This document shows, in pieces, positions 41,385-56,469 of a DNA stretch of 64,000 nt. The translations under genes and the position numbers were made by a program. Each line of letters starts with the position of its first letter. Positions within the stretch are counted from its first letter, which is position 1. The notes beneath the pieces are model-generated. The model ran no database searches and had not been told where the DNA came from. It was given only the letters and a program-made list of their open reading frames with translations. The stretch comes from Niveispirillum irakense DSM 11586 (GTDB lineage Bacteria > Pseudomonadota > Alphaproteobacteria > Azospirillales > Azospirillaceae), in contig NZ_AUCG01000023.1 in NCBI RefSeq assembly GCF_000429645.1, forward strand, positions 124,001 to 188,000, given 5' to 3'.

Positions 41385-41458
41385 GGGCTTGGTTTCCCGG
41401 AATGATGCGATGTCGAAAGGGGGTGCCGATGTGACGCCATCCGGCACCCCAAACGCCG

Positions 41459-42271: not shown

Positions 42272-43555
42272 TCAGCGCTTTGCGGCAACGGGGAAGCTGG
42301 TTGGGTAACGGCCCAGGCCCAGCAGCAGAATGCCACCGCCGACAAACATCAGCGCCGCCGCGATCAGCACCGGGGCATAGGTGCCGCTGCTGGCATAGAC
42401 ATACCCGTAAAGCGGGGGGGAGAAGGAGGAACCGGCGGCAAAGGCGGCATAGAGCATTCCGTAGATGCGACCATAATAGGCCATGCCGAAATAGCGGCCG
42501 GACAGATAGGCGATCAGGTCGGTTTCCGCACCCGCGGCGAAGCCCAGCATGACGGCGGCCAGGATGATCAGGGGCAGGGGCGCGGCATCGCCAATGAAGA
42601 TCATGCAGGCAAAGGCCGGCATGGACAGCAGCGGCAGGGCCACCATCGGCGCCCAGAATCGATCAACCAGATAACCGGTGCCGATACGGCCGACAATGAT
42701 GGACAGGCCGACGCAACCAGCGATCAAGGCGCCGGCCTCATCACTGAAGCCTTTCAGCCGGATCATGTTCTGCAGGTTGGTGTGGAACCCGCCATAGGCC
42801 AACGAGACCATCAGGAAGGACAGGATCATGATCCAGAAGCGGCGGTCGCGCAGAACCTGATTCAGCGGAACGCCGGTTCGCACGTTGGCGCTGAGGCCGT
42901 CCTGCCCATTGCCAGATACATCGCCGGGGCCGGGATCGCGCAGAAAAGCGTAAACAACGGGAAAGGCCACCAGCAATGGCAGCAAGGCCACCACGGCATA
43001 GGCAACCCGCCAGCCGTACCGTTCAATCAGGAAGACGGTCAGTGACGGCAGGATGAAGGCTGCGATGCCGGTGCCCACCAGCATGATGCCCAGTGCGAGC
43101 CCGCGATGGCGCACGAACCACAAGTTGACGGCGCGTGACCAGGTGACCGGGGTGGATCCGATCCCCAGCAGCCCCATGAGGAAATACATGGTGTAGAACA
43201 TGAAGAGCGAACTGGTCAGGCCGGTGGCGGCAAAGGCCAGCCCGAACCCGGCCAGCGCCAGCAACCCGACGCGGCGGGTGCCGTACTTGTCGGCCAGCCC
43301 GCCCACGATGGGGGCCATGATACAGCCGGTCAGGCCATACATCAGGATACCGATCTGGATATCACCGACATTCCAGCCGAACTCTTCCGTCAGCGGCTTC
43401 AGGAAGGAACCGATCGTGTTGTACGGCACGGGCGAGGCACCGCACATCGTGCCCAGCAAGGCCGCCAGCAGGATGGTCCAGCCCCTGGCAAATTCACCCT
43501 GCGCCGGCCCGGAAGGCGGAATGGCGGCGGTATTGTCCTTGGCGGATACGCTCAT
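42272..43555 (-). CDS. MFS transporter (monocarboxylate/oxalate-formate type), paralogue A
   Basis: About 427 residues and 12 membrane segments. Start of TM1 has SPVPYNTIGSFLKPLTEEFGWNVGDI, the loop 2-3 motif GGLADKYGTRRV, and the C-terminal half YLSGRYFGMAYYGRIYGMLYAAFAAGSSFSPPLYG. These features match MCT/OFA-like carriers of small carboxylates. It is clearly paralogous to the transporter at 60031-61275. The ATG at 43555 shares a base with the stop of the VOC gene (TGATG). It probably imports the pathway's substrate or an acidic product; direction and ligand are unknown. Confidence 0.82.
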   Translation of the reverse strand: MSVSAKDNTAAIPPSGPAQGEFARGWTILLAALLGTMCGASPVPYNTIGSFLKPLTEEFGWNVGDIQIGILMYGLTGCIMAPIVGGLADKYGTRRVGLLALAGFGLAFAATGLTSSLFMFYTMYFLMGLLGIGSTPVTWSRAVNLWFVRHRGLALGIMLVGTGIAAFILPSLTVFLIERYGWRVAYAVVALLPLLVAFPVVYAFLRDPGPGDVSGNGQDGLSANVRTGVPLNQVLRDRRFWIMILSFLMVSLAYGGFHTNLQNMIRLKGFSDEAGALIAGCVGLSIIVGRIGTGYLVDRFWAPMVALPLLSMPAFACMIFIGDAAPLPLIILAAVMLGFAAGAETDLIAYLSGRYFGMAYYGRIYGMLYAAFAAGSSFSPPLYGYVYASSGTYAPVLIAAALMFVGGGILLLGLGRYPTSFPVAAKR

Positions 43556-44469
43556 CACAGGCCCTTTCCGGTTTCGATCAGTTCGTACAATTCCCCGTCC
43601 GGGCCACGCAGGGTAGCAACCCGGCGTCCGTCATAGAGCGGGCCGGGCCGCGCCTGAGGCGGGGTCAGGAAAGGAAGGTCGATTTTGTCCAGATTGTCGA
43701 TATTGAAACTGATCAGCGCATTGCCCGGCGGCAGACCATCCGGCGGCTGCGGCCGGGTGATGGTGGCTTGCGGATATTGATCAATCTCCGCCACCGGCAG
43801 CCGGTCCACCTTGGTCATGCTGATCGTGGTGCGGTTGTCGGCGGGCAGGGCAAAGGCGTTGTTGATGACGCTATAAGGGATGTTGTAGGTGCCGCCTTCA
43901 GCGAAACCCAGATGACGCACCTGGAAATCAATCGACGCCTGCCGGTCGGATGCGGCCAGGATGGCGATGAAGATGATATCCACCATGGAGTCTGCCATTG
44001 GCAGATCCACGTCGCTCATCGATTTCAGAACCTGGTTGAGATAGAGAATCTCACCGCTGCGCCCCACCACCTGCATGGGGATGAAATTGGTGAAGCCTTC
44101 CACATGCTTGGGCGGGCCGATGACCTTGAAGGCCTCTGCCACCTTTTCATGCAAGGCGAAGACATCCTCCACGGTGATCTCATACGCCACCCAGCCATAG
44201 GACCGGGCGGGGCGATAATCCGGCGTGGCTTCCACCTCCACCAGACGGTAATAGCAGCCATTGCCGCCCGCCGGGCGCAGCAGGGCGGTACGGGCACCGG
44301 CCACGGCGGGGGCATCCCAGCTTGCGGCCAGATCGACAGGAACCGTCCCCTGTTCCACCAGCTCCAGCCCCAGCAGGTCGCGATAATCGGCCAGCGTCGC
44401 ATCAAAAGCGGGGGTGGCCACGGTACCGCACTTGATCCGGCCGTGCCGGTCGAAACCTGTGCTCGTCAT
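43555..44469 (-). CDS. Tandem VOC (glyoxalase/dioxygenase-fold) protein
   Basis: 304 residues made of two vicinal-oxygen-chelate halves: residues about 10-135 (GTVATPAFDATLADYRDLLGLELVEQG ... YGWVAYEITVEDVFALHEKV) and about 150-300 (DIIFIAILAASDRQASIDFQVRHLGFAEGG ... LRGPDGELYELIETGKG). Two-domain VOC proteins include extradiol ring-cleavage dioxygenases and related metal enzymes. The expected His ligands of extradiol enzymes are not obvious here, so isomerase, lyase or binding roles are equally possible. It follows the tandem alpha/beta-hydrolase gene by 4 bp and overlaps the MFS gene. Confidence 0.7.
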   Translation of the reverse strand: MTSTGFDRHGRIKCGTVATPAFDATLADYRDLLGLELVEQGTVPVDLAASWDAPAVAGARTALLRPAGGNGCYYRLVEVEATPDYRPARSYGWVAYEITVEDVFALHEKVAEAFKVIGPPKHVEGFTNFIPMQVVGRSGEILYLNQVLKSMSDVDLPMADSMVDIIFIAILAASDRQASIDFQVRHLGFAEGGTYNIPYSVINNAFALPADNRTTISMTKVDRLPVAEIDQYPQATITRPQPPDGLPPGNALISFNIDNLDKIDLPFLTPPQARPGPLYDGRRVATLRGPDGELYELIETGKGL

Positions 44470-44473
44470 CTTG

Positions 44474-46141
44474 TCATCCGTTCAGGAAATCAAGGAAGGC
44501 AGCCCCACGGGCCACCGGATCGGGATCACGCGCTAAGCGGGTGGCGGGCGTCACGTCGGCCACCGCCTTGTAAAGCGGGTCACCCGCCACATCCGCCAGC
44601 AGCAGCGGCACCGGAACGGCGCCCAGCAGCGTCCTGGTATCAGTGCTGAACGCAGCGCGCAGGGCATCACCCTGATGCTGGGGCTGTTGCAGCATGTCCA
44701 GCACCCGGCGATAGAGCAGGGCGGGCTGCAACACTGCACTATCACTGCGCACGGCCGGGATGGACAAATCCTGGGCAGGGAAGGCGGCTGCGGCATCACG
44801 CAATGCGTGGAAGGCGCGCAGCAAATGGCTGCCGGCCATGTCCGGGGACAGGGGGGCTGCCAGATAGGCCAGCATGCCCTCCCTGGCCGCGCCTTCCAGC
44901 ACCGGCAACCCATCCAGCACGGCCCGGCGCACCGGCAATCCTGCTGTCAGCAGACAAAGCGCCAGCGGCACGGACAGGCCATTGGCGACCAGATCGAATT
45001 CCTTGAACCCGAGGGCGGCCACGCTTTGCGCCAGGGCGCGGACATAGGCATCCGCCGTCGGGTCGGGCAGCGGCACTGAGGCACCACAGCCCGGCAGGTC
45101 CGGGGCGATGACGGGGCGACCGCCGGCGGCCAGCGCCTGATGGAGAGCGTCCTCCGCCCCGCTGCCGCCCGGCAGGTCATGCAGGCAGAGGATGGGACGG
45201 CCCTGGCCGGGATGGAAGCGCACATGCATCTGCCCATGCGGCAGATCAACATAACGCGGTCCCGGCTGCGCTTCCACGACGGGCATCGGCCCGGCGATCA
45301 TATCCTCGCGGTGATCATCAAACATGCGGCGGATATGCGCCATCCAGGCGACGCGGTCGGCTGACAGGCGCGCAACGGACAGGGTGGGCGGCAAAGGATC
45401 GGGCAGCAGGTCCAGACAGCGGAACAGCACATCATCGGCCCGTGCCATCACCTGGGCCGGCACCGCCACTTTCGACACATTCGCCAAGGGCTGGTGCCAC
45501 ATGGCGGCGCGGTAGGCGCCGCTATAGTGCGGGCCGGCCATGGCGTAATCCATGAAATAGGCATGGATATCGCCGATTTCCGGCTGGGCGATGGGCATGC
45601 GGCAGCGTGCCTGGGGCGCGAACCACGGGAACCAGCGCATCGTATCCCGCACGCGCGTCCATTCCCGCGCCAGCCACGCGCCATCAGCATCAATATCGAA
45701 CGGGCGCATATAGGTGTCGATAAAGGCACCGTCGGGCTTGCCGCCGGGGGCGATGGACAACCCGTCCAGCAGCGCCACCGCCACGCGCGACGGGTGGCGC
45801 ACGGCAAAATCCAGCAGAATCTTGGAACTGGTATGGAAGCCGTAGAACCCGGCTTTCTCCAGTCCCAGCGCCGTCACTGTCCGGGCCAGCGCATCGGCAA
45901 AATCGGCAATTTCCAGCCCGCGCCCATCCACCGCCAAGGGTGTGGACAGGCCATAACCGGGCGTGTCCAGCGCATAGACCGTGTATTGATCGGCCAGGGC
46001 CGCGATCAGGTCCAGATGCAGCACCGAGGAACGCGGGCTGTCATGCAGCAGCACGATGGGGGGACCGGAACCGGCGCGTCGATAATGGACGACACCGCCA
46101 TCCACAACGACATAGGCTTTACATATGTGCGGGTCCGTCAC
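44474..46141 (-). CDS. Tandem-domain alpha/beta-hydrolase-fold protein without Ser nucleophile, paralogue A
   Basis: 555 residues: two alpha/beta-hydrolase domains (about 8-285 and 297-555). Domain 1 has HYRRAGSGPPIVLLHDSPRSS and YALDTPGYGLS, but its nucleophile elbow reads GFHTS (101-105), with His103 in place of the catalytic Ser. Domain 2 has RPILCLHDLPGG and IAPDLPGCGAS, and its elbow reads ANGLS (386-390), with Gly388 at the nucleophile position. Thus neither half has the GxSxG triad nucleophile. The paralogue at 50904-52469 shows the same substitutions, so this is a conserved design rather than decay. Possible roles include a cofactor-free oxygenase, lyase or C-C hydrolase-like step. 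The gene starts a unit with the VOC and MFS genes. Confidence 0.75.
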   Translation of the reverse strand: MTDPHICKAYVVVDGGVVHYRRAGSGPPIVLLHDSPRSSVLHLDLIAALADQYTVYALDTPGYGLSTPLAVDGRGLEIADFADALARTVTALGLEKAGFYGFHTSSKILLDFAVRHPSRVAVALLDGLSIAPGGKPDGAFIDTYMRPFDIDADGAWLAREWTRVRDTMRWFPWFAPQARCRMPIAQPEIGDIHAYFMDYAMAGPHYSGAYRAAMWHQPLANVSKVAVPAQVMARADDVLFRCLDLLPDPLPPTLSVARLSADRVAWMAHIRRMFDDHREDMIAGPMPVVEAQPGPRYVDLPHGQMHVRFHPGQGRPILCLHDLPGGSGAEDALHQALAAGGRPVIAPDLPGCGASVPLPDPTADAYVRALAQSVAALGFKEFDLVANGLSVPLALCLLTAGLPVRRAVLDGLPVLEGAAREGMLAYLAAPLSPDMAGSHLLRAFHALRDAAAAFPAQDLSIPAVRSDSAVLQPALLYRRVLDMLQQPQHQGDALRAAFSTDTRTLLGAVPVPLLLADVAGDPLYKAVADVTPATRLARDPDPVARGAAFLDFLNG

Positions 46142-46219
46142 ACTCTGCTCTCCCCAGTCCGTTCAGCCATCCTGTCAATGTGCCGCGTTTTCCGCTGCAT
46201 CATGTTCTTGCCGGTCGAT

Positions 46220-46235
46220 GGTATATTGATATACG
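46220..46235. promoter_or_regulatory. Candidate GntR operator in divergent promoter
   Basis: GGTATATTGATATACG, containing the perfect palindrome GTATAT-TG-ATATAC, in the region between the divergent alpha/beta-hydrolase and flavoprotein genes. It matches the core of the 54076-54095 site in 14 of 16 bases. A flanking ATCAATATA repeat follows at about 46241-46249. Confidence 0.6.
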
Positions 46236-46292
46236 AATAGATCAATATAAAACGCGCTAGCGAACAAACTGCCTCGGCAAAGGACAGGGTTC

Positions 46293-47942
46293 ATGCAGAA
46301 TCTTTCCATCCAAACCGGTGCCGCTCCGGCATCGACCGCCGGTACGGGTCCGGCTGATATCCCTTCGGACCAGGATGTTACGGCCCTGGCCGGGCGGCTG
46401 GCCGCCATTGTCGGTAAGGGTCACATCCATCGTGATGCGCCGCATCGGGGCCTGTTTTCCCAAGATATCTATATCGCTGCCGCTGCCCCGGCTGCGCTTG
46501 TCGTTGCCCCTGCGACGACAGATGAATTGTCGGCAGTGGTATCGGCAGCTCATGCGGCTGGCTTCTCCTGTGCCCCGCGTGGCGGGGGGATGAGCTACAC
46601 AAAGGGCTATATTCCATCTTCTCCACGCAGCGTCATGCTGGACCTGTCGCGCATGGACAAGGTGCTGGATATCCGTGCCGATGACATGGTGGTGACGGTA
46701 CAGGCCGGCTGCACCTGGAAAACCCTGTATGAGACGCTGGCCCCGCTGGGGCTGCGCACCCCGTTCTGGGGCGCCCTCTCTGGGTTGGTGTCCACCATCG
46801 GCGGCGGTCTGTCGCAGGGCAATGCCTTCTTCGGCGCCGGCCATCATGGCACCACGGGGGAAAGCGTGGTCGCCCTCTCGCTGGTGCTGGCCGATGGCCG
46901 TGTACTGCGCACCGGCGCCCGTGGGGCGGATGGCAACAGCCCCTTCTACCGTTTCTATGGCCCGGATGTGACGGGCCTGTTTGCCGGGGATTGCGGGGCT
47001 TTTGCCATCAAGGCGGAAGTGACGTTGCGGCTGATCCGTGCGCCCAAGCATGAAGGTTATGTTTCCTTCTCCTTCAAGACCAGCCCGGACATGCTCGCGG
47101 CGATGACGGAGATGACGCGTGCCGGCATCGCCTGTGAACTATGCGGTTTCGACCCGCGCCTTACCCGCATCCGCCTGAAGCGTGCCTCCCTGGCCTCCGA
47201 TCTGGGGGCGCTGAAGAACGTGGTCGGCAAGCAGGGCTCCTTCCTCAAAGGGATGAAAGAGGCGGCGAAGGTGGCGCTGGCCGGGCGCAGCTTTATTGAT
47301 GATGGTGATTTCGCTCTGCATATCGTGTGCGAGGGGCGCTCAGCCGCCGGTGTTGCCGACGATGTGGCTGAAGCCAAGCGCATTGCCGCCCGCTTCAACG
47401 GGGTGGAGGTGGAGAACACGATCCCCAAGGTGATGCGCGCCCAGCCCTTTGTGGCGTTGAATTCCATGGTCGGCCCAAATGGGGAACGCTGGGTGCCGAT
47501 CCATTGTCTGGCACCGCTGTCCCGTGCCCATGCCATTTTCACCGCGATTGAGGCGGAGTTTGATGGCATGCGGGCGGAACTGGATGAACATGGGATCGAA
47601 AACGCTTTCCTGTTCAGCTCCCTGTCCACCAATGCCCTGGTGATCGAGCCGACCTTCTACTGGCCGGATGCGATGATGCCGATCCATGACGCCTATGTGG
47701 AAAAATCCCATATGGCGAAGCTGCCCGCATATCCGGCCAATCCGGCGGCGGCGGCTGTCGTGGAAAAGGCCCGCCAGCGCCTGCTGGCTTTGTTCAAGCG
47801 GGAAGGGCTGGGCCATTTGCAGGTTGGCCGCACATATCCCTATCTGGAAAGCCGGGACGCGGCCAGCGTGGACCTGCTGCAAGGGATCAAGCAGGTGCTG
47901 GACCCGGAAAGGCGCGTCAATCCGGGTGTGTTGGGACTGTAA
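46293..47942 (+). CDS. FAD-dependent oxidase/dehydrogenase (PCMH/VAO family)
   Basis: 549 residues. The FAD-binding PCMH domain is clear: AAPAALVVAPATTDELSAVVSAAHAAGFSCAPRGGGMSYTKGYIP, then SGLVSTIGGGLSQGNAFFGAGHHGTTGESVVALSLVLADG. The C-terminal half is of the cytochrome-linked D-lactate/glycolate/VAO type and ends DPERRVNPGVLGL, the usual flavin-contact tail. Such enzymes oxidise hydroxy acids or phenolic side chains. It is transcribed divergently from the hydrolase/VOC/MFS unit, with a shared palindromic operator between them. It probably performs an early or middle oxidation in the island's pathway; substrate unknown. Confidence 0.8.
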   Translation: MQNLSIQTGAAPASTAGTGPADIPSDQDVTALAGRLAAIVGKGHIHRDAPHRGLFSQDIYIAAAAPAALVVAPATTDELSAVVSAAHAAGFSCAPRGGGMSYTKGYIPSSPRSVMLDLSRMDKVLDIRADDMVVTVQAGCTWKTLYETLAPLGLRTPFWGALSGLVSTIGGGLSQGNAFFGAGHHGTTGESVVALSLVLADGRVLRTGARGADGNSPFYRFYGPDVTGLFAGDCGAFAIKAEVTLRLIRAPKHEGYVSFSFKTSPDMLAAMTEMTRAGIACELCGFDPRLTRIRLKRASLASDLGALKNVVGKQGSFLKGMKEAAKVALAGRSFIDDGDFALHIVCEGRSAAGVADDVAEAKRIAARFNGVEVENTIPKVMRAQPFVALNSMVGPNGERWVPIHCLAPLSRAHAIFTAIEAEFDGMRAELDEHGIENAFLFSSLSTNALVIEPTFYWPDAMMPIHDAYVEKSHMAKLPAYPANPAAAAVVEKARQRLLALFKREGLGHLQVGRTYPYLESRDAASVDLLQGIKQVLDPERRVNPGVLGL

Positions 47943-47982
47943 GGCGGGAGTAGAAGGTATCATTCATGGTTTCGCGGCCCCA

Positions 47983-48366
47983 TCACTTGATGATCCGGTC
48001 GCGAAACCATGATGCAAGTTCCGCCTCACTCATCCTGCTGGCGGCAACGGCCTCCACAGTACGAACCGCATCAACCTTATCTATGCGTATGCGGTAGCCG
48101 TTATCGGCCAGGAACAAACGGGCGGCAATCCAGGCCGTCTGTTTGTTGCCATCAATAAATCCGTGATTTTTCGTCAGCCCATAGACATAGGCTGCCGCCA
48201 GATCAGCCACATCGGGCGTGCCATAGAGGGTAAGGTTTTGCGGCCTGGTTAGTGCTGATTCTACGGAGCCCTGATCGCGTATTCCATCTCTGCCGCCATG
48301 TTCGGCAAGTTGCCGATCATGCACAGCATAGATGATCCGGGAACCGAGCCAGCGCCACTCCTTCAT
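47983..48366 (-). CDS. doc: Doc-type Fic-fold toxin
   Basis: 127 residues, the length of Doc toxins. AVHDRQLAEHGGRDGIRDQGSVESALTRPQN at the N-terminus and the active-site loop HGFIDGNKQTAWIAARLFL are diagnostic (canonical HxFxx[AG]NKR). The Arg after NK is replaced by Gln here. Doc phosphorylates EF-Tu in phage P1. The start overlaps the antitoxin stop (ATGA), the standard antitoxin-first arrangement. It is convergent with the flavoprotein gene, 40 bp away. Confidence 0.88.
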   Translation of the reverse strand: MKEWRWLGSRIIYAVHDRQLAEHGGRDGIRDQGSVESALTRPQNLTLYGTPDVADLAAAYVYGLTKNHGFIDGNKQTAWIAARLFLADNGYRIRIDKVDAVRTVEAVAASRMSEAELASWFRDRIIK

Positions 48367-48590
48367 TTCGCCAGGGCACGCAGGATATCCCGATCCTCAT
48401 GCATGATTTCCTCCGCCAAGGACATCTGGCGTTCAAATGTGGGGTCATAGGGGGTCAGCCGATAGCTGCCATCCGGCGCTTCGGTCAAATACAGCGTGTC
48501 GCCCTTCTGGACTTTAAGGTGCGCCAGCGCTTCCTTGGTTAAAATGATACCGGCGGAAGCCCCAACCGTCGTTACCTTGAATGCGAGCAT
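48363..48590 (-). CDS. AbrB/MazE-type antitoxin paired with Doc
   Basis: 75 residues. FKVTTVGASAGIILTKEALAHLKVQKGDTLYLTEAPDGSYRLTPYD is the swapped-hairpin AbrB/SpoVT DNA-binding fold; the C-terminal 25 residues (FERQMSLAEEIMHEDRDILRALAK) should be the toxin-neutralising helix. ATG at 48590 has GGAGG seven bases upstream. It should bind Doc and repress its own promoter through the palindrome at 48611-48626. Doc is better known with Phd antitoxins; AbrB-type partners are a recognised variant. Confidence 0.85.
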   Translation of the reverse strand: MLAFKVTTVGASAGIILTKEALAHLKVQKGDTLYLTEAPDGSYRLTPYDPTFERQMSLAEEIMHEDRDILRALAK

Positions 48591-48610
48591 CTCCGGGCCT
48601 CCAGCCAAAT

Positions 48611-48626
48611 TATAATGTCCATTATA
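48611..48626. promoter_or_regulatory. Autoregulatory palindrome of the toxin-antitoxin operon
   Basis: TATAATG-TC-CATTATA: perfect 7-bp arms, about 20 bp upstream of the antitoxin start. TATAAT itself resembles a -10 box, so antitoxin binding would block RNA polymerase. Confidence 0.65.
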
Positions 48627-48661
48627 TAGCATTCAGGCCCGCGCCAGAACATTCCTCATTT

Positions 48662-49324
48662 TCAGAAAGGCTTCCAGACGCTGATCACGGTGATGGCGGC
48701 GATGAAGAGCCAGAGCAGGCAGACAATGGCCGTGCCGTGACGCGCGCCCTGACGCAGGCTTTGCTCCCTGTCCGTGTTGCTGCCCTCTGCCTGGATCACC
48801 CGCCAGGTGCGGAAAAGCCCGATCAGGGCGAAGCGAATACCCACGCCGCAAGCCACGACGGCAGCGAATAGACCCAATTTCAAGCGCAGCCAGCCCGGCA
48901 TGGGCCAGTCGGCACCGATCAGGCCGATGGCAGTCGCCAGCAGCAGGGCGATCAACACATAGCGCGATGCACGGTCGATGGCGGCAAGGATATGGCCCTG
49001 GCTGCCATGGCGCAGCCGGTGGACCAGTTCCACAAAACCCAGCCACAGCACCCCGAAAGCGAGGAATCCGTTTGCGACCGCCGGTCCGCCGGGAATATAG
49101 CCGTAATGGATGGCGATAGCCGGGCCTAAACTGGCCTGCAGGACCAGGGCGTAGCGCACATGCTGGTCAACCGTCATCACATGGCCCATCAGCCGGTTGC
49201 GTTCCCCGATCGGGATGCCCGGCTGGGCACAGACATAGCGAAACGTGCTGTTAATGACCAGTTCCGACCCCAGCCAATAGCCGAGAATGGCAATGTGCAG
49301 GGGCAATAGCCACTCAATGATCAT
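48662..49324 (-). CDS. Integral membrane protein, CopD/DUF2269-like, paralogue 1
   Basis: 220 residues with about five membrane segments (LLPLHIAILGYWLGSELVI; VLQASLGPAIAIHYGYI; AVANGFLAFGVLWLGFVEL; YVLIALLLATAIGLIG; GLFAAVVACGVGIRFALIGLF; AIVCLLWLFIAAITVISVW). The first helix with YWLGS.. followed by short cytoplasmic helices resembles the protein at 50184-50840 (YWLGGDLG), so the two are paralogues. Similar to CopD/DUF2269 four-to-eight-helix proteins, some of which bind haem or copper. It follows a DUF3108-like gene across a stem-loop. No catalytic motif seen. Confidence 0.6.
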   Translation of the reverse strand: MIIEWLLPLHIAILGYWLGSELVINSTFRYVCAQPGIPIGERNRLMGHVMTVDQHVRYALVLQASLGPAIAIHYGYIPGGPAVANGFLAFGVLWLGFVELVHRLRHGSQGHILAAIDRASRYVLIALLLATAIGLIGADWPMPGWLRLKLGLFAAVVACGVGIRFALIGLFRTWRVIQAEGSNTDREQSLRQGARHGTAIVCLLWLFIAAITVISVWKPF

Positions 49325-49355
49325 TCTTCCCCCCCAATGATACGCGCAGGCGCCA

Positions 49356-49387
49356 GAGAAAGGGGCCGTGTGTGCAGCCCCTTTCTC
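49356..49387 (-). terminator. Stem-loop between unknown protein gene and membrane protein gene
   Basis: GAGAAAGGGGC and GCCCCTTTCTC pair perfectly around a 10-nt loop, just after the stop of the 49404-50126 gene. The short T-rich arm could give partial termination on the minus strand. Confidence 0.45.
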
Positions 49388-49403
49388 ATCGGGTGGGAAA
49401 GGG

Positions 49404-50126
49404 TCAGCGCTCCAGGCTGACCAGTTCGTACCAGGTCATCATGTAACCGCCGACACCACCCTGGACGAAGATGCTGTCCTCGTCTTTGGTGACCCACACA
49501 TCATAGACGGGGTGGGCACCATTGGCGTTGACCATGCCACCATCTTCATCGGAGAAGCGGTAATGGCGGCATTCAAAGGTGCCGGCGGTGACGGTGACCG
49601 TCTCCTCCCCGACATATTCCATATAAAGCCGGCTTTCCGCGATCAGCGGCGGCGTGGCGCCGCGATGGTCGACCGATGGCAGGAAGGCGCGGATTTCCCG
49701 CTTATGCGGCCCGCGCGACAGGTCCAGGCAGCGCGTCAGATAGGCATCCCCGATGATGGGATGGGTACCGAACCCGTCATAATGGCCTTCCACCGGCATC
49801 TGCTGCGAGACGCGGCCAATGGAAGGACCATAACTTTCGCATTCAATCAGGCCCGGGCTCATCCGGAACCAGCCGGTGCCCATGAATTTGTCGCCCACGG
49901 TCAGGCGGACATGGCAATCCATCGGCCGGTCATTTTCATCCAGTGAATAGATGATGTCGCGCAGCACGGTGGGCGCCGGCTCTTCAATCTCACATTGGGC
50001 GCGGATGGTCAGCTTGCCATCGGTATGGCGGGTCATGGTGAAATGTTCGCGGCCGCGTTCCTGGCCCACCCGTTCCGGCTTGCGTGACGTGTAGCGGATG
50101 GTGCCGCGGATCGTGCGATGCTGCAT
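49404..50126 (-). CDS. Unknown beta-rich protein, DUF3108-like
   Basis: About 240 residues, no signal peptide or membrane helix. It looks like a beta-barrel/LolB-like fold: HFTMTRHTDGKLTIRAQCEIEEP, DIIYSLDENDRPMDCHVRLTVG, and VTVTAGTFECRHYRFSDEDG ... HPVYDVWVTKDEDSIFVQG near the C-terminus, which resembles DUF3108 proteins. ATG at 50126 follows AGGAGAACCAAGGC. It lies between the two paralogous membrane proteins on the same strand and is likely co-transcribed with them. Function not recognised; a small-molecule-binding role in the island's pathway is a guess. Confidence 0.5.
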   Translation of the reverse strand: MQHRTIRGTIRYTSRKPERVGQERGREHFTMTRHTDGKLTIRAQCEIEEPAPTVLRDIIYSLDENDRPMDCHVRLTVGDKFMGTGWFRMSPGLIECESYGPSIGRVSQQMPVEGHYDGFGTHPIIGDAYLTRCLDLSRGPHKREIRAFLPSVDHRGATPPLIAESRLYMEYVGEETVTVTAGTFECRHYRFSDEDGGMVNANGAHPVYDVWVTKDEDSIFVQGGVGGYMMTWYELVSLER

Positions 50127-50183
50127 GCCTTGGTTCTCCTGTCGGTCTTGGCCTCTATCGTGGGCCATTGGGGATGGGGTGCG

Positions 50184-50840
50184 TCAGGTCGGGGTGCCAA
50201 GCCCCAGCGTTGCCGCCATCAGCAGCAACAACCAGAGCAGCATCACGACGGGACGGGCGCGGGCCAGCACGCCTTTGATGGCGGCATCGGTTTCCGGTGT
50301 GGCGCCCGTGGCCATCATCTGGCCGAAGGGTGCCATCAGGGGCCGCAGCAGCAGCCGGATCAACAGGCCCAGCGAAATCGCAATGGCCAGGATCAACAGC
50401 TTGGCGGCAATGAAATGCGGCAGATGGATCAGGCCGGCAATACCGGCAATGCCCAATCCGGCACAGCCAAGCAGCACGGCCCAGCGGATCACCAGATCCA
50501 CCGTGCGCAGCCAGGGTTGCTTGCCATGGGTGATATGGACAGCCCAGGCCAGGGCCAGCCAGACCAGCATGACCACCCAGACCGCGGCCAGGAAGGCGGG
50601 CGGCAGTTCCGCCAGCCAGCCTTTGATGGAGGCCAGGGTCAGGCCGGTGGGCAAAGCCAGGATCAGCGCTGTACGCGGCGCCATGTCCACGGCCATCAGA
50701 ATGCGCAAAGCCGTGGCCCGTTGCGGCGGGGTGGCTTTCGCGTCGGTCAGGATGGTGGAGGCATAAAACGCCCCCAGATCGCCGCCCAGCCAATAAACGA
50801 AGATCAGCAGGTGCAGCAGGGTGAACAGCAACTCGCCCAT
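50184..50840 (-). CDS. Integral membrane protein, CopD/DUF2269-like, paralogue 2
   Basis: 218 residues and five or six membrane segments (FTLLHLLIFVYWLGGDLGAFYAS; AALILALPTGLTLAS-like; FLAAVWVVMLVWLALAWAVHI; VIRWAVLLGCAGLGIAGIAGLI; KLLILAIAISLGLLIRLLL; VVMLLWLLLLMAATLGL). It shares the YWLG(S/G)(D/E)L first-helix motif with the protein at 48662-49324. Several membrane-facing His residues (in LLHLLI, HITHGK, LIHLPHF) could bind haem or metal. The ATG is 27 bp downstream of an AT-rich GATATATC element. It is followed by the unknown beta-rich protein gene after a 57-bp gap. Confidence 0.6.
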   Translation of the reverse strand: MGELLFTLLHLLIFVYWLGGDLGAFYASTILTDAKATPPQRATALRILMAVDMAPRTALILALPTGLTLASIKGWLAELPPAFLAAVWVVMLVWLALAWAVHITHGKQPWLRTVDLVIRWAVLLGCAGLGIAGIAGLIHLPHFIAAKLLILAIAISLGLLIRLLLRPLMAPFGQMMATGATPETDAAIKGVLARARPVVMLLWLLLLMAATLGLGTPT

Positions 50841-50903
50841 TCGAAGCCCCCTTATTATTGTCCTAGAGATATATCATTATGACAAGTCAGGGAACCCGAA
50901 ATC

Positions 50904-52469
50904 TCAGGTCAGGGCAAGAAGACGGGGCAACCATCCGCCCAGCGTGCCGCCGCCATCCAGTACCGCATCGGCCAGATGCTGGTGGCGGTTACCGGCTTGG
51001 GTGCGTAAGGACGCCGCGTCGATGCGCGTTTCCAGCGCCACGGCTTCCTGCCACTGCGCCCCGGCTTTCAACAGGGACAAGGCCCGTTTCTGGATGTCGC
51101 CGGGCTCCAGATCGCCGGGCGGATGCAGGGCAGCGGCTTGGTCGCCCTTATGCCAGGGCCGGAACAGCCGTTCCCGCCGGGCGATGCGGAAAGCCCGAAC
51201 CAGATGCGCGCCATCCCATTCCGGCGCCAGGGAGGGGGCGCCATCTGCCGGGTCCAGCACCAGATCATCGCCCAGATGGACGGATTTTGCTGCAACGCCA
51301 TCCGCCGCCAGTTGCGTTGCAATCAACCCCCCCAGCCCCCGACCGGCAACCAGCGGCTGGGTGAAGCCAGCGGCACTGATCGCTTCACGGATCACGGTCG
51401 CCAGCGTCGGCAGACTGGCGGCCAACGGAATAGTCTGGCTTTCGCCATGACCCGGCAGGTCGAAGGCCAGGACGGGCCGGTTTGTCCGCGCGGTCACCCC
51501 GTCAAAGTCCCCTCCAGTGCCACCAGCCCGGTGCAGCAGCACCAGCGGCTGACCATGGCCCGTTAACCTTCCACGCCAGGCGATTGGTCCCTTGCTGGTG
51601 GGTAAAAAGCCACGCCTGTCCGACTCTACGACGGCCGGCGCTTCATCCCCCGGATGTGCCGCCAGCCAGTCGGTGGCAGCCGCGCGCAAGCTGGGGGCAT
51701 CCGGCACGATGCGCGCAGCGGCACCCGCCAGCCCAGGCCGCGACAGGTGACCGCGCAGCACATCGGCTTGCGTCACGATGATCAGATAGTCAGATTTCAG
51801 GGCCGGCAGCCAATGGTCGGGGCGAAAGGTGAAGGCGGCACGATAGGTGTTGCGGTAATTATCGCCCGCTTCCAGCAGATCCATGGCATTGCCATGCAGA
51901 TAGGAGGGGGTGGAGAGATCATAGTCCATCCGGGCCGATGGCAAGGCCCGGTGCCAGGGGAAGAACATCATCTGTTCTTCGATTCGTGACCAGACCCAAC
52001 ACATATGGCTGCCATCCCAGGATGGCAGCAAGGGCGGCAGGTAGTGGGCCAGACAATCGGCCCTTTCCTCCTCCGACCAACAAGGCAGGCCATCGAACAG
52101 GGCCCCCGTCACCCGGTCAGGATAGAGCGCAGCAAAGGCGCAGGCGATGGTGGCACCAGTATGGAAGCCATAAAGCCCCACCCGCTTCAGCCCCAATACC
52201 TCCGCGAAACGGCCCAATGCCATGGCATAGGCATCACTGTCCGGCAGCGTGGCGGTAAGGGGAGGGGACAGGCCATTACCCGGCGTGTCAGGCGCAATAA
52301 CGCAGAACCCGCGCGCCGCCAGCATTTCCCCCATCGCTGCCATGGTGCGCGAGGATTGCGGCGAGCCGTGCAATGCCAGGATGGCTGGCCCATGGCCCCA
52401 GCGCCGGTAATGGACAGTCCGCCCGTCAACTTCCACGAAATGGCGGGTTTGCACGATGGGATGGGTCAC
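50904..52469 (-). CDS. Tandem-domain alpha/beta-hydrolase-fold protein without Ser nucleophile, paralogue B
   Basis: About 521 residues with the same two-domain plan as the protein at 44474-46141. Domain 1: HYRRWGHGPAILALHGSPQSS, IAPDTPGNGLS and elbow GFHTG (101-105; His103 replaces Ser). Domain 2 (from about 290): GQPLVLLHRAGGTGG, LAFDLPGHGES and elbow GRGLG (376-380; Gly378 replaces Ser). GTG at 52469, with GGAG 9 nt upstream, begins at THPIVQTRHFVEVDG; the longer frame to 52601 adds residues with no domain match. Domain 1 keeps HG oxyanion residues. Presence of two such paralogues in one island suggests two related steps or substrates. Confidence 0.75.
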   Translation of the reverse strand: MTHPIVQTRHFVEVDGRTVHYRRWGHGPAILALHGSPQSSRTMAAMGEMLAARGFCVIAPDTPGNGLSPPLTATLPDSDAYAMALGRFAEVLGLKRVGLYGFHTGATIACAFAALYPDRVTGALFDGLPCWSEEERADCLAHYLPPLLPSWDGSHMCWVWSRIEEQMMFFPWHRALPSARMDYDLSTPSYLHGNAMDLLEAGDNYRNTYRAAFTFRPDHWLPALKSDYLIIVTQADVLRGHLSRPGLAGAAARIVPDAPSLRAAATDWLAAHPGDEAPAVVESDRRGFLPTSKGPIAWRGRLTGHGQPLVLLHRAGGTGGDFDGVTARTNRPVLAFDLPGHGESQTIPLAASLPTLATVIREAISAAGFTQPLVAGRGLGGLIATQLAADGVAAKSVHLGDDLVLDPADGAPSLAPEWDGAHLVRAFRIARRERLFRPWHKGDQAAALHPPGDLEPGDIQKRALSLLKAGAQWQEAVALETRIDAASLRTQAGNRHQHLADAVLDGGGTLGGWLPRLLALT

Positions 52470-52700
52470 GGCGGACGCTCCGATCAAAAAAGGAGAGGAA
52501 GAAGCGGCGATCAGAATATTGCGTGTTGCACGGGATCGCGCTGTCTGAAATGATATAAACACATATCTATAAGCAGGAAAATACCCCTGCCAGTCGCCCA
52601 TCGGTTTGGATGTTACGCGTTAAGATATGTTTCAGAGCCGCATGCCATGGTATGTTTATGCGGTTCCATCCATCCGCTCATCGCATATCGGAGGGATTTG

Positions 52701-53198
52701 ATGGCCCATGAATTATCCGCCTTGATCCGCGCCGCGCTGTTTGTGCGCGACCTGGATCGGTCGATTCGGTTCTACAAGGCTTTAGGGTTCGACGCGGTCT
52801 ATTTTGAAGGGATGCTGGACGGTCCGTCTGCGGCCACGGTCCTGGCGGTTCCACCGACATCCAAGGTGCGCTGCTGCATCCTGAAGCGGGCCGACGGCCC
52901 CAATTTCGGCATGGTCGGCCTGTTCGAGGTGACGGAACCGGTTCCCGAGGCGCTGCCTCTGTCAGCCGGTCCACCCCGCATCGGTGAAGTGGCATTGGTC
53001 ATCTATGCCAAGCCGATCACGGAAGCGATCATCGCCTGCCGTGCGGCTGGTGCCACCTGGGCACCTGATGCCATCCTGTTCAACATGCCCCATCGTCAGC
53101 AGATGGAATCCTGCCTGCGGGATCCGGACGGGGTGCTGATCAATCTGGTGGAACGCGATCCGGCAGAACAGAACCGTACCCAGCCGGTGGTGTTGTAA
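52701..53198 (+). CDS. VOC-family (glyoxalase/dioxygenase fold) protein
   Basis: 165 residues. LIRAALFVRDLDRSIRFYKALGFDAVYFEG is the classic first beta-alpha-beta unit, and the second half has GEVALVIYAKPITEAIIACRAAGATW and ESCLRDPDGVLINLVERDP with the terminal metal-ligand Glu position. A single polypeptide contains two beta-alpha-beta modules, enough for one active site per dimer. TCGGAGGG precedes ATG 52701. It shares TAATG with the following bicupin gene, so they are translated together, and both lie upstream of the TonB receptor. Confidence 0.8.
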   Translation: MAHELSALIRAALFVRDLDRSIRFYKALGFDAVYFEGMLDGPSAATVLAVPPTSKVRCCILKRADGPNFGMVGLFEVTEPVPEALPLSAGPPRIGEVALVIYAKPITEAIIACRAAGATWAPDAILFNMPHRQQMESCLRDPDGVLINLVERDPAEQNRTQPVVL

Positions 53199-54013
53199 TG
53201 GCACGGCCGCACGTGGAATTCGTGCAGTCGCAACAGGTGGACTGGCAGGAAGAGGGGACGGGAACAGCGGTTAAGCCGCTGAATATCGACCCCGATACTG
53301 GCGATGGAACGGTGCTGCGACGCTATCCGGCGGGGGTGGGCCAGGCTCCGGCGCCGCGGCCCGGCACCTCCATGGAATTCTATGTCCTGGATGGGGCGAT
53401 CAATATTGATGGGCACGAACTGGCGCCTCACGCCTATGGCTATCGCCCTGCCGGTACGCCCTCCTTGGCGTGGCGCAGCGATAAAGGCGCGCTTCTCCTG
53501 GAAATCCGGGAGGAACGGCCGGTACCAACCGGTGAGCCGGACCCCGCCATCCTGATCAATAGTCTCGCCATGCCGTGGGACGTTTCCACCTACGATCCGC
53601 AGCTTCGCCATATGCACAATGCCCGCAAAGTGCTGCGTCTGGGGTCGGGTGATAGCGGGCGGACTTTCCTGCTGGCAGGATTGCCGCACGGCTTTCCTGA
53701 AGCGCCCGACCTGCCGCTGGAAAAACACCCCCATGCGGAAGAAATGTTCATGATTCACGGGGAGATGAAATCACCCCAGGGTGTCATGCGCGACGGCGCT
53801 TATTTTTACCGCCCGCCCGGTATCTGGCATGGGCTGCATGTGTCGGAGTTCGGCTTCCTGATGTTCATGCGCAGCCCGGGTGCCAACCGCATCAGCACGC
53901 ATTGGAGCGAGCAGCGCCACCCCATCCATTATCGCCCTTCTTTTCAGCCTGTGCTGCCGGAAGGGGCGCCCACATCCTGGTCTGCTCCTCATAGTGATCG
54001 GCCAACTTACTGA
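53198..54013 (+). CDS. Bicupin-fold protein (DUF4437-like)
   Basis: 271 residues with two cupin halves. First: MEFYVLDGAINIDGHELAPHAYGYRPAGTPSL (about 65-100); second: PLEKHPHAEEMFMIHGEMKSPQGVMRDGAYFYRPPGIWHGLHVS (about 175-220), whose HPHAEE ... H pattern (two His and a Glu, then a later His) is a typical metal site. The first half lacks the His ligands. Cupins of this kind include ring-cleaving dioxygenases, isomerases and epimerases. Co-translated with the VOC protein. An oxygenase role in the island is plausible but not shown. Confidence 0.75.
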   Translation: MARPHVEFVQSQQVDWQEEGTGTAVKPLNIDPDTGDGTVLRRYPAGVGQAPAPRPGTSMEFYVLDGAINIDGHELAPHAYGYRPAGTPSLAWRSDKGALLLEIREERPVPTGEPDPAILINSLAMPWDVSTYDPQLRHMHNARKVLRLGSGDSGRTFLLAGLPHGFPEAPDLPLEKHPHAEEMFMIHGEMKSPQGVMRDGAYFYRPPGIWHGLHVSEFGFLMFMRSPGANRISTHWSEQRHPIHYRPSFQPVLPEGAPTSWSAPHSDRPTY

Positions 54014-54075
54014 TTTTAAGTGAAAATCCGGACAACAAAAAAATATGTCCGGACTTAATCAAAAAGAGCTTCCGT

Positions 54076-54095
54076 TTGGTATATTGCTATACCAA
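54076..54095. promoter_or_regulatory. Candidate GntR operator upstream of TonB receptor
   Basis: TTGGTATATTGCTATACCAA: perfect 8-bp arms with TTGC centre, 79 bp upstream of the receptor start. It shares its core with sites at 46220-46235 and 59995-60012. Confidence 0.65.
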
Positions 54096-54174
54096 TATGT
54101 TCAAAAAAGCGGGTGGACGGGCAAAACCACCTGGTGGCCTGGAGGCTCAATAGAAGGACAGGAGGCTGGTTCAA

Positions 54175-56469
54175 ATGACTGCTAAACACTCTAATTGTGT
54201 GCGCGTGAAGCCGGCATTGAAGCTGGGGGCATCCTTGGCCCTGCTTGTTGCCGCCATTCCGATGGCGGCCCAGGCGCAGAGCGACGGCCTGCAGCTTGAA
54301 GAAATCGTGGTGACGGCAACCCGCCGTGCCGCCAGCCTGCAGGATGTGCCGCTGGCCGTTTCGGCCTTTACGGCGGCCGAGCTGGAAAACCGGCAGATCA
54401 CTTCGACCCTGGATCTGGTCCGGTCGGTGCCGAACCTTTACGGCTCCAACAATACCGGCGTTCCCAGCGCCAATACCTATTATATCCGTGGCCTCGGCTC
54501 GACCGAGCAGATCGCCACCATCGACCCCGCCGTTTCGACCTATGTCGACGATGTGGTCGTGCCGCGCCAGAACGCCAATAATTACGGCTATTTCGATCTG
54601 GAGCAGATGGAAGTGCTGCGGGGCCCGCAGGGGACCACGTTCGGCCGTAATTCCACCGGTGGTGCAATCTCCGTCAAGCTGAAGAAGCCCAGCGATCAGT
54701 TCGGTGGCTTCCTGCAGGCAGCCTATGGTTCCTATGACCAGATGCTGGTGCGTGGCGACGTGAACATCCCCGTCAGCGAAAAGGTGCTGACCAAGTTCAC
54801 CGGCTTCTATACCGAAGATGAGGGTTGGGCCAAGAACGTCGCCAATGGCGAGAAGATCAACGCGCTGAAGAACTGGGGTGGCCGTGGCGCCGTCCGCATC
54901 CTGCCCAATGACGATATAACCGTCGATCTGGCGCTGGAACATATGGATGGTGATGGTCTCTACCTGCGCACATTTGCGGGTGACAATCGCGAAACCATCC
55001 TGCCGGGCAGCACCAAGGGCGGCACCTCGGATGAAGTCGCTGATGCGCTGGCCAATCGTGGTCTGCGCGCCCAGTACGATACCACAGCGGTGACGGCCAA
55101 TATCGAGTGGCGCTTCGATGATGTGTCGGTGGAATCCATCACCGGTTACCGCACCATCAACCAGAGCTTCGTGCTGGACTTCTCCCTGCCGGCATCGCGC
55201 ACCGTTGTGCCGACCCCGTTCTACCTGACCAATGATGGCGGGTACGACATGTTCAGCCAGGAGTTCAAGGCCGCCGGCAATTTCGGCGACCGGCTGAGCT
55301 ATGTTGCCGGTCTCTATTACTTCTATGAGAACAATGCCACGCTGGCGGGGCAGGTCTTTGGCTCCTCTGTTTCCTGCTCGGCGGGCCTGTTCGGTGATGG
55401 CAACATGACCTGTGGTGGCCGTCCCGGCTATTCCAGCGTCCGCGACATCCGGAACAAGACCAGCTCATATGCCGCCTATGCCCAGTTCGATTACAAGCTG
55501 ACCGATGAACTGACGGCCATTGCGGGCCTGCGTTACACCAACGAGGTCAAGAAGCTGGATCTGCGGCCGACTTCCTACGGTGGCATCACCACGGAAGACA
55601 TCATTGCCGCCGGCATGAAGACCCGGCTGGAGACCAACAAATTCACCCCGAAGTTCGGCCTGAACTACAAGGTCGATCCCGATGTGATGCTGTTCGTTTC
55701 CGCGACCAACGGCTACAAGTCCGGTGGCTGGAACAGCCGTACCGCCTATGTCCCGCAGAGCTTCCAGGACATGGAGCCGGAGACGGCCTGGTCTTATGAG
55801 GCCGGCTTGCGCAGCGACCTGTTCAACCGTCGGGTCCGCTTCAATGTCACCGGCTTCATCACCAATACCGACAATCTCCAGCTCTCCTACACCACACCCG
55901 GCCCCATCGCTGGGACCACCCTGTCCACACAGGACAATGCGGGTGATATCCGGGTGAAGGGTCTGGAGTTTGAGTTGAGTGTTCGCCCGACGGCTGGTCT
56001 GGATGTCTTTGCGACCCTGGGCCTGCAGGAAGGCAAATATACCTGGGTCAATCCGGCGGCCCAGTCCTTCACCAACGCCAGCGGCGCCTTTGTCAACGCC
56101 ATCGACCCGACGGACGAGCTGTCCCGTCTGCCGAAAAAGTCGCTGGCGATGGGCGCCACTTATACGGTGCCGGTCGAAGCCTTGAAGGGCTCACTGATCT
56201 TCAGTGGCGAGGCCAATTATACCGGTGGCTTCTGGACGACGGCGTCCAACACCACGCCTTCGACCCGGACGCCAACGGCGCTCGACACCTTCGCCCGGTC
56301 CTACACGCTCTATAACCTCTCCGCCTCTTACCTGTCGGAAGATGAGGCATGGCGGCTGGCTGTGGAGTGCAAGAACTGCTCCGACAAGCTGTATCTGACC
56401 TCTGTCTTTAACGGCTATTACTATGGCGAGCCGCGCCGTGTCCGTGCGACGCTGACCCGCAAGTTCTGA
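54175..56469 (+). CDS. TonB-dependent outer-membrane receptor
   Basis: 764 residues. Signal peptide (LKLGASLALLVAAIPMAAQAQ), TonB box region (LEEIVVTATRR), plug domain (QDVPLAVSAFTAAELENRQI, YYIRGLGS, VDDVVVPRQ, EQMEVLRGPQGTTFGRNSTGGAISV) and a barrel ending VRATLTRKF with the usual C-terminal aromatic. This subclass (IRGxG, GRNSTGGAI) is expanded in sphingomonads and related bacteria for carbohydrates, aromatics and other nutrients, not specifically siderophores. It has no STN domain. AGGAGG lies nine bases upstream of the ATG. Its place behind a regulon-type palindrome suggests uptake of the island's substrate. Confidence 0.92.
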   Translation: MTAKHSNCVRVKPALKLGASLALLVAAIPMAAQAQSDGLQLEEIVVTATRRAASLQDVPLAVSAFTAAELENRQITSTLDLVRSVPNLYGSNNTGVPSANTYYIRGLGSTEQIATIDPAVSTYVDDVVVPRQNANNYGYFDLEQMEVLRGPQGTTFGRNSTGGAISVKLKKPSDQFGGFLQAAYGSYDQMLVRGDVNIPVSEKVLTKFTGFYTEDEGWAKNVANGEKINALKNWGGRGAVRILPNDDITVDLALEHMDGDGLYLRTFAGDNRETILPGSTKGGTSDEVADALANRGLRAQYDTTAVTANIEWRFDDVSVESITGYRTINQSFVLDFSLPASRTVVPTPFYLTNDGGYDMFSQEFKAAGNFGDRLSYVAGLYYFYENNATLAGQVFGSSVSCSAGLFGDGNMTCGGRPGYSSVRDIRNKTSSYAAYAQFDYKLTDELTAIAGLRYTNEVKKLDLRPTSYGGITTEDIIAAGMKTRLETNKFTPKFGLNYKVDPDVMLFVSATNGYKSGGWNSRTAYVPQSFQDMEPETAWSYEAGLRSDLFNRRVRFNVTGFITNTDNLQLSYTTPGPIAGTTLSTQDNAGDIRVKGLEFELSVRPTAGLDVFATLGLQEGKYTWVNPAAQSFTNASGAFVNAIDPTDELSRLPKKSLAMGATYTVPVEALKGSLIFSGEANYTGGFWTTASNTTPSTRTPTALDTFARSYTLYNLSASYLSEDEAWRLAVECKNCSDKLYLTSVFNGYYYGEPRRVRATLTRKF

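Follow-up and report, generated by a model that had tools for sequence, protein, structure and literature searches.

What can an alpha/beta-hydrolase do when no serine stands at its nucleophile elbow? The question is raised by two tandem proteins, here called A and B, encoded on the minus strand of a 64,000-nucleotide (64-kb) stretch of Niveispirillum irakense DSM 11586 (contig NZ_AUCG01000023.1, positions 124,001 to 188,000), referred to below as the window, within which all coordinates are given. A sequence-only reading of the window had reported that none of their four domains carries an elbow Ser, with His103 in its place in domain 1 and Gly in domain 2. Re-reading of the motifs, GFHTS and ANGLS in A and GFHTG and GRGLG in B (both GFHT segments starting at residue 101), agrees, and the presence of a His elbow in both paralogues is confirmed. 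As to function, it is proposed that the elbow His and the acid after strand beta7 form a catalytic base, with domain 1 as the working domain and domain 2 as a degenerate partner; belief and doubt in this reading are about evenly balanced. The features of the two genes are as follows.

44474..46141, minus strand: protein A, tandem alpha/beta-hydrolase, 555 amino acids, GTG start (open reading frame, Pfam, AlphaFold model)
About 45302-46141 and about 44477-45274, minus strand: domain 1 and domain 2 of A
45827..45841, minus strand: domain-1 elbow of A, GFHTS, residues 101-105, with the His103 codon at 45833-45835 (sequence, model)
45431..45433, minus strand: Asp237 of A at the beta7 acid position, equivalent of Asp236 in B (alignment)
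44972..44986, minus strand: domain-2 elbow of A, ANGLS, residues 386-390, Gly388 at the nucleophile position (sequence, model)
50904..52469, minus strand: protein B, tandem alpha/beta-hydrolase, 521 amino acids counted from the GTG at 52469 (the open frame reaches 52601)
About 51645-52469 and about 50907-51632, minus strand: domain 1 and domain 2 of B
52155..52169, minus strand: domain-1 elbow of B, GFHTG, residues 101-105, with the His103 codon at 52161-52163 (sequence, model)
52362..52364, minus strand: Ser36 of B in the oxyanion loop HGSP (family alignment)
51762..51764, minus strand: Asp236 of B at the beta7 acid position (model, alignment)
51954..52016, minus strand: domain-1 cap motif of B, DGSHM...W...E...FFPW, residues 152-172 (family alignment)
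51330..51344, minus strand: domain-2 elbow of B, GRGLG, residues 376-380, Gly378 at the nucleophile position (sequence, model)
51153..51215, minus strand: domain-2 cap motif of B, DGAHL..AF...R...FRPW, residues 419-439 (family alignment)

Pfam finds hydrolase-fold matches in each half of both proteins, which share 31% identity over 512 columns, and the beta5-elbow-alphaC core together with fold similarity to solved structures places A and B in the alpha/beta-hydrolase superfamily. That the GFHT segment is the nucleophile elbow, as had been assumed, is upheld by the AlphaFold models, in which His103 lies at the beta5-turn-alphaC junction of both proteins, preceded by strand 97-102 in B and 94-102 in A and followed in each by helix 104-115. 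The domain-2 Gly of B lies between strand 373-377 and helix 379-389, and that of A directly follows strand 382-387, where the local confidence is about 71; from residue 411 onward the predicted local distance difference test (pLDDT) score of the A model is 30-56. Both proteins lack the elbow Ser of serine hydrolases (His103 in domain 1, Gly in domain 2), and their elbow His stands where epoxide hydrolases and haloalkane dehalogenases have Asp and where dienelactone hydrolase and PHA synthase have Cys. The acid that serine hydrolases carry after beta7 is present as Asp in A and B, and alignment finds no triad His in the loop after beta8 in domain 1 of either. The HG/HD oxyanion region, which was said to remain, does so in part: domain 1 reads HD in A and HG in B and domain 2 reads HD in A, but domain 2 of B reads HR, and Gly is uncommon at this position in the family.

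The original argument that a substitution shared by two diverged paralogues marks a retained site is strengthened by its conservation in many diverged relatives and by trees. A profile built from seven tandem His-elbow proteins and run on the collected loci gave 141 proteins, 121 of them of tandem length; removal of 13 Azospirillum-type rows and one truncated row left 107, with a median pairwise identity of 39%. This profile search for two-domain relatives, which the sequence-only reading had proposed, returned an elbow His in domain 1 of 100 of the 107 rows, the others having Lys (4), Arg (1), Asp (1) or Ala (1). Thr104 is found in 105/107 rows, the beta7 acid Asp236 in 102/107, and Ser36 in 103 of the 105 domain-1 rows having letters there. 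At 60% non-redundancy (47 rows), the elbow His is kept in 43/47 and Asp236 in 45/47, and among 37 domain-1 rows chosen for their pairwise similarity to A or B, 37/37 have Thr104 and 34/37 have His103. In the same genome, 14 other profile-matched hydrolase-fold genes have Ser (13) or Asp (1) in the elbow column; set against these, the count among the relatives places the elbow His beyond chance and rules out an accident of two paralogues.

Conservation in domain 1 extends around the elbow. Position x of the oxyanion loop H34-x-S36-P37 is Q/A/E/D in 87/107 rows and Gly in 8/107, the stretch D61-T-P-G-x-G-x-S68 is also kept, and the conserved cap comprises Tyr143, Gly153, His155, Trp160, Arg/Glu164, Asp/Glu165, Pro171-Trp172, Arg180, Tyr205, and Tyr209. 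Within this cap, His155 is found in 96/107 rows and His192 in 75/107, Gln replacing the latter in 25/107; residue 126, after beta6, is Asp in 76/107. Some His-elbow relatives, single-domain or of Azospirillum type, have Ala, Asn or Thr in place of Ser36. The region of beta8 was checked in 64 aligned rows, 58 of which extend to that point and whose single-domain members, being picked by motif, have their elbow His by construction; three proteins (L014 and the two L090 proteins) show a clear GHG-type His after beta8, in five domains altogether, and L007 may have one. In L073, L209, L211, and L216 the elbow reads GxKTG, with Lys for His, and three of these four have Ser for the beta7 Asp; a further change of chemistry is possible in these rows.

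The trees set the sampled His-elbow domains apart from the Ser/Asp hydrolases. In a tree of 29 His-elbow and 13 Ser/Asp-elbow domains, for which single-domain His rows were chosen by motif, a branch supported at 99/95 separates the His rows from the rest, and domain 1 of both A and B falls among the His rows. A second tree with 15 domain-2 rows, which omitted two long Ser rows and two His rows, split 27 His rows plus domain 2 from 11 Ser/Asp rows at 100/99, a branch that makes domain 2 a member of the same His-elbow family; the order of the domain-2 split and the origin of the His has support of only 59/92, and either order is possible. A and B thus show the marks of what may be called the GxHTG family, namely a GxHT[GS] elbow, the usual Hx[SNAT]P loop, the beta7 acid, and a position on one branch against the Ser/Asp hydrolases. 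In a larger domain tree of 109 rows, for which twenty near-duplicate, frame-extended or partial rows were removed first, A/B-type domain 1 and domain 2 form separate groups. By this topology the A/B type would go back to one old fusion, the Azospirillum type to a second, independent one, and the L090 proteins, both domains of which retain HTG, to a third. Support for some forks is weak here, and within the His branch three Ser-elbow rows stand misplaced on long branches, as they no longer do in trees with more outgroup rows.

In the Azospirillum-type tandem proteins (L036-L046, L048, L102), the degenerate domain comes first, with Asp in a LAFDLAAPLA-like elbow, and the intact GTHTG domain second, the reverse of the order in A and B; since these 13 rows were defined by an Asp first elbow and a His second elbow, the split is one of construction.

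Domain 2 tells a different story at its elbow. Across the 107 rows this column holds G 45, N 15, W 14, H 8, Q 7, D 6, S 5, E 2, K 1, and Y 1, with 3 gaps; in at least one row, L139 (HAHDA), the alignment is out of register here. Of the eight His, two belong to the L090 proteins, and four of the five Ser rows (L164, L168, L199, L214) have GxSxG; L168 and L199 carry a classical serine elbow in domain 2, GESLG and GDSLG respectively, beside a His-elbow domain 1. The cap motif of domain 2 is kept, with Gly420 in 103/103, His422 in 90/102, and Arg431 in 94/99 of the rows with letters. Because it is conserved despite the free elbow, the cap motif is independent of the elbow His, and it may well have a structural or interface role; plain decay of domain 2 is rejected, its cap motif being well preserved. 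Taken together, conservation and trees back the earlier idea that domain 1 retains a non-classical site, with domain 2 catalytically degenerate.

The His elbow occurs well beyond this locus. The N. irakense genome has seven His-elbow genes, A and B plus five single-domain ones (elbows GSHTG twice, GFHTG, GYHTG, and GHHTG), with E values between 1e-116 and 3e-87 against a 12-row profile of which they form part; after them come domain 2 of A (3.5e-37) and others from 7e-22. Rough counts were obtained at three levels: 28/82 genomes of the host family match at E 1e-25 (up to 18 candidates scored in each), 21/385 of the host class at 1e-30 (3 candidates scored per genome), and 7/299 of the host phylum at 1e-25 (8 candidates scored per genome). 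One of the 21 class genomes (G443) has as its sole match L070, with Ala at the elbow. The phylum matches in G361, G537, and G552 are ordinary Ser- or Asp-elbow proteins; with three of the seven matching genomes ordinary, the His elbow is found in 4/299. Outside Alphaproteobacteria, a GSHTG relative lies on a Variovorax plasmid and a GTHTG relative on a Comamonas plasmid, and two tandem proteins with GMHTG come from one genome of the same phylum and another class. The family is present at least in Alpha- and Betaproteobacteria, as far as these matches tell. In one alphaproteobacterial family (f30, with G414, G732, G240, G110 and others), 10/10 searched genomes match the tandem profile at E 1e-50 or better, with up to 16 matches in one 3.7 Mb genome, which reads as a lineage-specific expansion.

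The genes around A and B give some indication of the setting in which these proteins work.

43555..44469, minus strand: VOC/glyoxalase-superfamily protein directly downstream of A (Pfam; recurrent neighbour)
42272..43558, minus strand: MFS transporter in the apparent A operon (Pfam)
41459..42151, minus strand: isochorismatase-family hydrolase in the apparent A operon (recurrent neighbour)
39511..41447, minus strand: two PuuE-like polysaccharide-deacetylase-family proteins, at 39511-40431 and 40428-41447 (recurrent neighbours)
46293..47942, plus strand: FAD_binding_4 (GlcD-like) oxidase, divergent from A (commonest recurrent neighbour family tested)
49404-50168, minus strand: DUF3108-like protein, directly on the downstream side of B (Pfam match below cut-off)
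50184-50840, minus strand: small membrane-like protein directly downstream of B, 218 amino acids, no Pfam match
52647..56469, plus strand: divergent from B, a small VOC protein (52647), a ChrR-type cupin (53198), and a TonB-dependent receptor (54175)

Judging from gene order and overlapping ends, A heads an apparent operon of VOC, MFS, isochorismatase-family, two PuuE-like, and crotonase genes. A survey of 15 neighbour families compared 41 His-elbow-hydrolase regions with 12 control regions, these being 12 of the 14 ordinary hydrolase-fold genes of the same genome. The FAD oxidase was found in 14/41 regions, the 300-residue VOC protein in 10/41, and the isochorismatase and PuuE-like families in 7/41 each, all against 0/12 controls; the SDR, TonB, AMP ligase, and MFS families also occur in 1-2 of the 12 control regions. 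GntR regulators too recur near His-elbow hydrolases. The DUF3108-like and 218-residue proteins each occur in 7/41 regions and 0/12 controls. On the Comamonas plasmid, an isochorismatase-family gene and two polysaccharide-deacetylase-family genes come right after the single-domain GTHTG relative. In a second cluster of the N. irakense genome, a pair of single-domain His-elbow genes surrounds two luciferase-like monooxygenases, an M24 peptidase-family protein, and a kinase-like (APH) protein; a FAD_binding_3 protein and an arylmalonate-decarboxylase-family protein lie nearby. A, B, and many of their relatives sit in clusters of catabolic appearance, and this context points to catabolism of ring compounds, perhaps N-containing ones. 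Isochorismatase and Asp/Glu-racemase-type genes would fit the maleamate route of pyridines, but the rest of that route was not found, no search aimed at it having been made.

Elsewhere in the window, a type VI secretion cluster at 15364-36053 includes VasE/ImpJ, IcmF, VipB sheath, and Hcp by Pfam (six proteins tested), as well as a ClpB-type ATPase and a VgrG-like baseplate protein. Between the A and B clusters lies a Fic/Doc-family protein (47983-48366, minus strand), possibly the toxin of a toxin-antitoxin pair. The stretch 5598-7828 holds a gene of low third-position G+C content (457-residue sulfatase-family match, third-position value 0.43), and a tRNA-Pyl predicted at 7543-7626 over an opposite open frame is probably a false call.

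How, then, might the elbow His act? The elbow position, its conservation, and the loss of the beta8 His while the acid is retained are the grounds for reading it as a base. The residues, their place at the elbow in the models, their conservation, the trees, and the gene context are observed; that His103 pairs with the acid and acts as a base, which type of reaction it promotes, and what domain 2 does are inferred. Domain 1 would be the working domain, in which the beta7 acid (Asp236 in B, Asp237 in A) would orient His103 to serve as general base in a pocket beneath a cap rich in conserved Tyr, Trp, Arg, and His. It would deprotonate a substrate or a water and so promote C-C or C-N cleavage, or an elimination, on an intermediate of a catabolic pathway, the anion site being formed by backbone amides of Thr104 and the beta3 loop, with no acyl-enzyme on serine. 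Domain 2 would be a degenerate family member kept as a built-in dimer partner or lid. Several findings weigh against this proposal. The gathering profile was built from seven His-elbow proteins, which biases the 107-row count toward His. A His lies within strand beta8 in four rows (L054, L056, L059, L062), and confidence in the A model, with mean pLDDT 63.7, is low over its second half. In the 107-row set the acid is lost in 4/7 non-His rows against 1/100 His rows, but this covariation nearly vanishes in the non-redundant set (1/4 against 1/43); a rule that non-His sequences always lose the acid was dropped on these figures, which are suggestive at best. The neighbour families were defined from the tested loci, some regions come from related or the same genomes, the control consists of 12 loci from one genome, and three of the five His-elbow regions of the N. 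irakense genome (L108, L193, L194) contain none of the 15 families.

The most direct challenge is that Ser36 could still be the nucleophile in the tandem clade. A rewired triad of Ser36 as nucleophile, His103 as base, and Asp236 as acid would leave A and B hydrolases after all, and the conservation of these three residues in tandem domain 1 (103/105, 100/107, and 102/107) makes this a serious rival for that clade, albeit an unlikely one. That such a loop can border the site is seen in HOD, where Trp36 touches the active-site water through its main-chain amide (PMC10548524). The objection that a Ser might be supplied from another position had been raised with the sequence-only reading itself, and it keeps some weight for tandem domain 1, where Ser36 is nearly invariant: the Ser36 position is, however, Asn, Ala or Thr in L013, L015, L071, L140, and Azospirillum-type domain 2, as would not be expected of a universal nucleophile, and a Ser at the loop position also occurs in an ordinary Ser-elbow member, L129 (HGSS). 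His103 might instead itself be the covalent nucleophile, replacing Ser, Cys or Asp through an acyl- or alkyl-imidazole. It sits at the nucleophile position in the models and Lys, another nitrogen side chain, takes its place in 4/107 rows, but we know of no example of a covalent elbow His, and without a beta8 His or other base, turnover of an acyl-imidazole needs another water activator. The elbow residues named in a fold review, Ser, Asp, and Cys (PMC11878206), fit this alternative, which is nevertheless quite improbable.

A cofactor-free dioxygenase of the HOD/QDO type, acting on a heteroaromatic intermediate, would share the fold, and flavin and FAD oxidases and families of amide-hydrolase type among the neighbours speak for it. 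In HOD a His-Asp base suffices, and the AqdC elbow is Ala (PMC10548524). The base of HOD, however, is a His of the beta8 loop, where none is conserved in A or B, and oxygenation could come from many of the neighbours instead; we regard this assignment as very improbable, and the earlier proposal of a cofactor-free oxygenase or lyase was not substantiated. There is also a small chance that A and B are non-catalytic, ligand-binding pseudo-enzymes that sense or carry a catabolite. The degenerate elbow of domain 2 fits this, as does the existence of serine-less hydrolase-fold binding proteins. Against it stand the near-invariant His-Thr pair and conserved acid of domain 1 at a median identity of 39%, the retention of the His site even in proteins whose intact domain is the second one, and the placement of the genes among enzymes and transporters, though GntR regulators are found there too. 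Finally, His103 could be a metal ligand together with His155 and His192 of the cap plus an acid. The frequency of the two cap residues (96/107 and 75/107) favours such a site, but His192 is Gln in 25/107 rows and the cap GxH is equally conserved in domain 2 (His422, 90/102), where the elbow His is mostly lost, which leaves this explanation a very slight chance indeed.

Should the elbow His prove catalytic, a further active-site layout would exist in one of the largest enzyme folds, and the label 'alpha/beta hydrolase', as used in the plasmid records, may mislead on function. Because either domain can be the one that has decayed, what the partner domain does is open to direct test, and the Lys-elbow subgroup offers a natural variant of the His elbow.

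With regard to known systems, no description of a conserved His elbow was found in the open literature (motif full-text, and titles and abstract openings of the best-ranked papers listed; subscription literature and protein databases being outside reach), nor did that literature yield a published pathway of apparent relevance with the same gene content. A 12-sequence His-elbow profile matched 218 distinct chains of solved structures at 1e-10, the best being an esterase (E 3e-23); among the 60 matches listed of these 218, the five alignments shown contain no His elbow, and the L014 relative gave 0 matches to solved structures at 1e-8. Ndr (NDRG) proteins are serine-less members of the hydrolase fold, to which A has a sub-threshold match (16.2, cut-off 23.3), whereas A and B belong to a family with a conserved GxHTG elbow and acid. 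The meta-cleavage-product C-C hydrolases (BphD, DxnB2, MhpC, HsaD) have the fold, a catabolic setting, and weak profile matches in common with A and B but use a Ser-His-Asp triad; both proteins fall far below the C-C hydrolase cut-offs, A scoring 33.6 with the HsaD NCBIfam profile against a cut-off of 400. Haloalkane dehalogenases combine an elbow Asp with a catalytic His. Epoxide hydrolases do the same (PMC11878206), and with both groups A and B share the fold and a non-Ser elbow, whereas their own elbow is His without a beta8 His. Compared with Abhydrolase_1 and Abhydrolase_6 (PF00561, PF12697), A and B have an elbow His (domain 1) or Gly (domain 2) in place of Ser, Asp or Cys, are tandem, and lack a conserved beta8 His, and the family loop is HxSP with x mostly Q/A/E/D. 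The recent fold review gives the elbow as Ser, Asp, Cys or no functional residue, with the catalytic His after beta8 (PMC11878206), a list that does not include His.

The absence of HOD from the 50 matches shown in the fold comparison does not bear against a likeness. The Asp of HOD lies after beta6. HOD, QDO, and AqdC are cofactor-free 2,4-dioxygenases that degrade N-heteroaromatic compounds, and in HOD the base is His251-Asp126, with the His in the beta8 loop and no need for an elbow Ser (PMC10548524). A and B have the fold in common with these enzymes but carry their His on the elbow and a conserved acid after beta7; as no His is conserved after beta8, the likeness to HOD is one of principle, not of parts. 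Set beside these systems, the GxHTG proteins, found at least in Alpha- and Betaproteobacteria, would tentatively form a separate catalytic class, a view we hold at slightly less than an even balance, in which the catalytic His has moved onto the elbow to act as a dyad base, as the base of a permuted Ser36-His103-Asp236 triad, or as a nucleophile, and in which tandem proteins have repeatedly come to pair one live with one decayed site, in either order.

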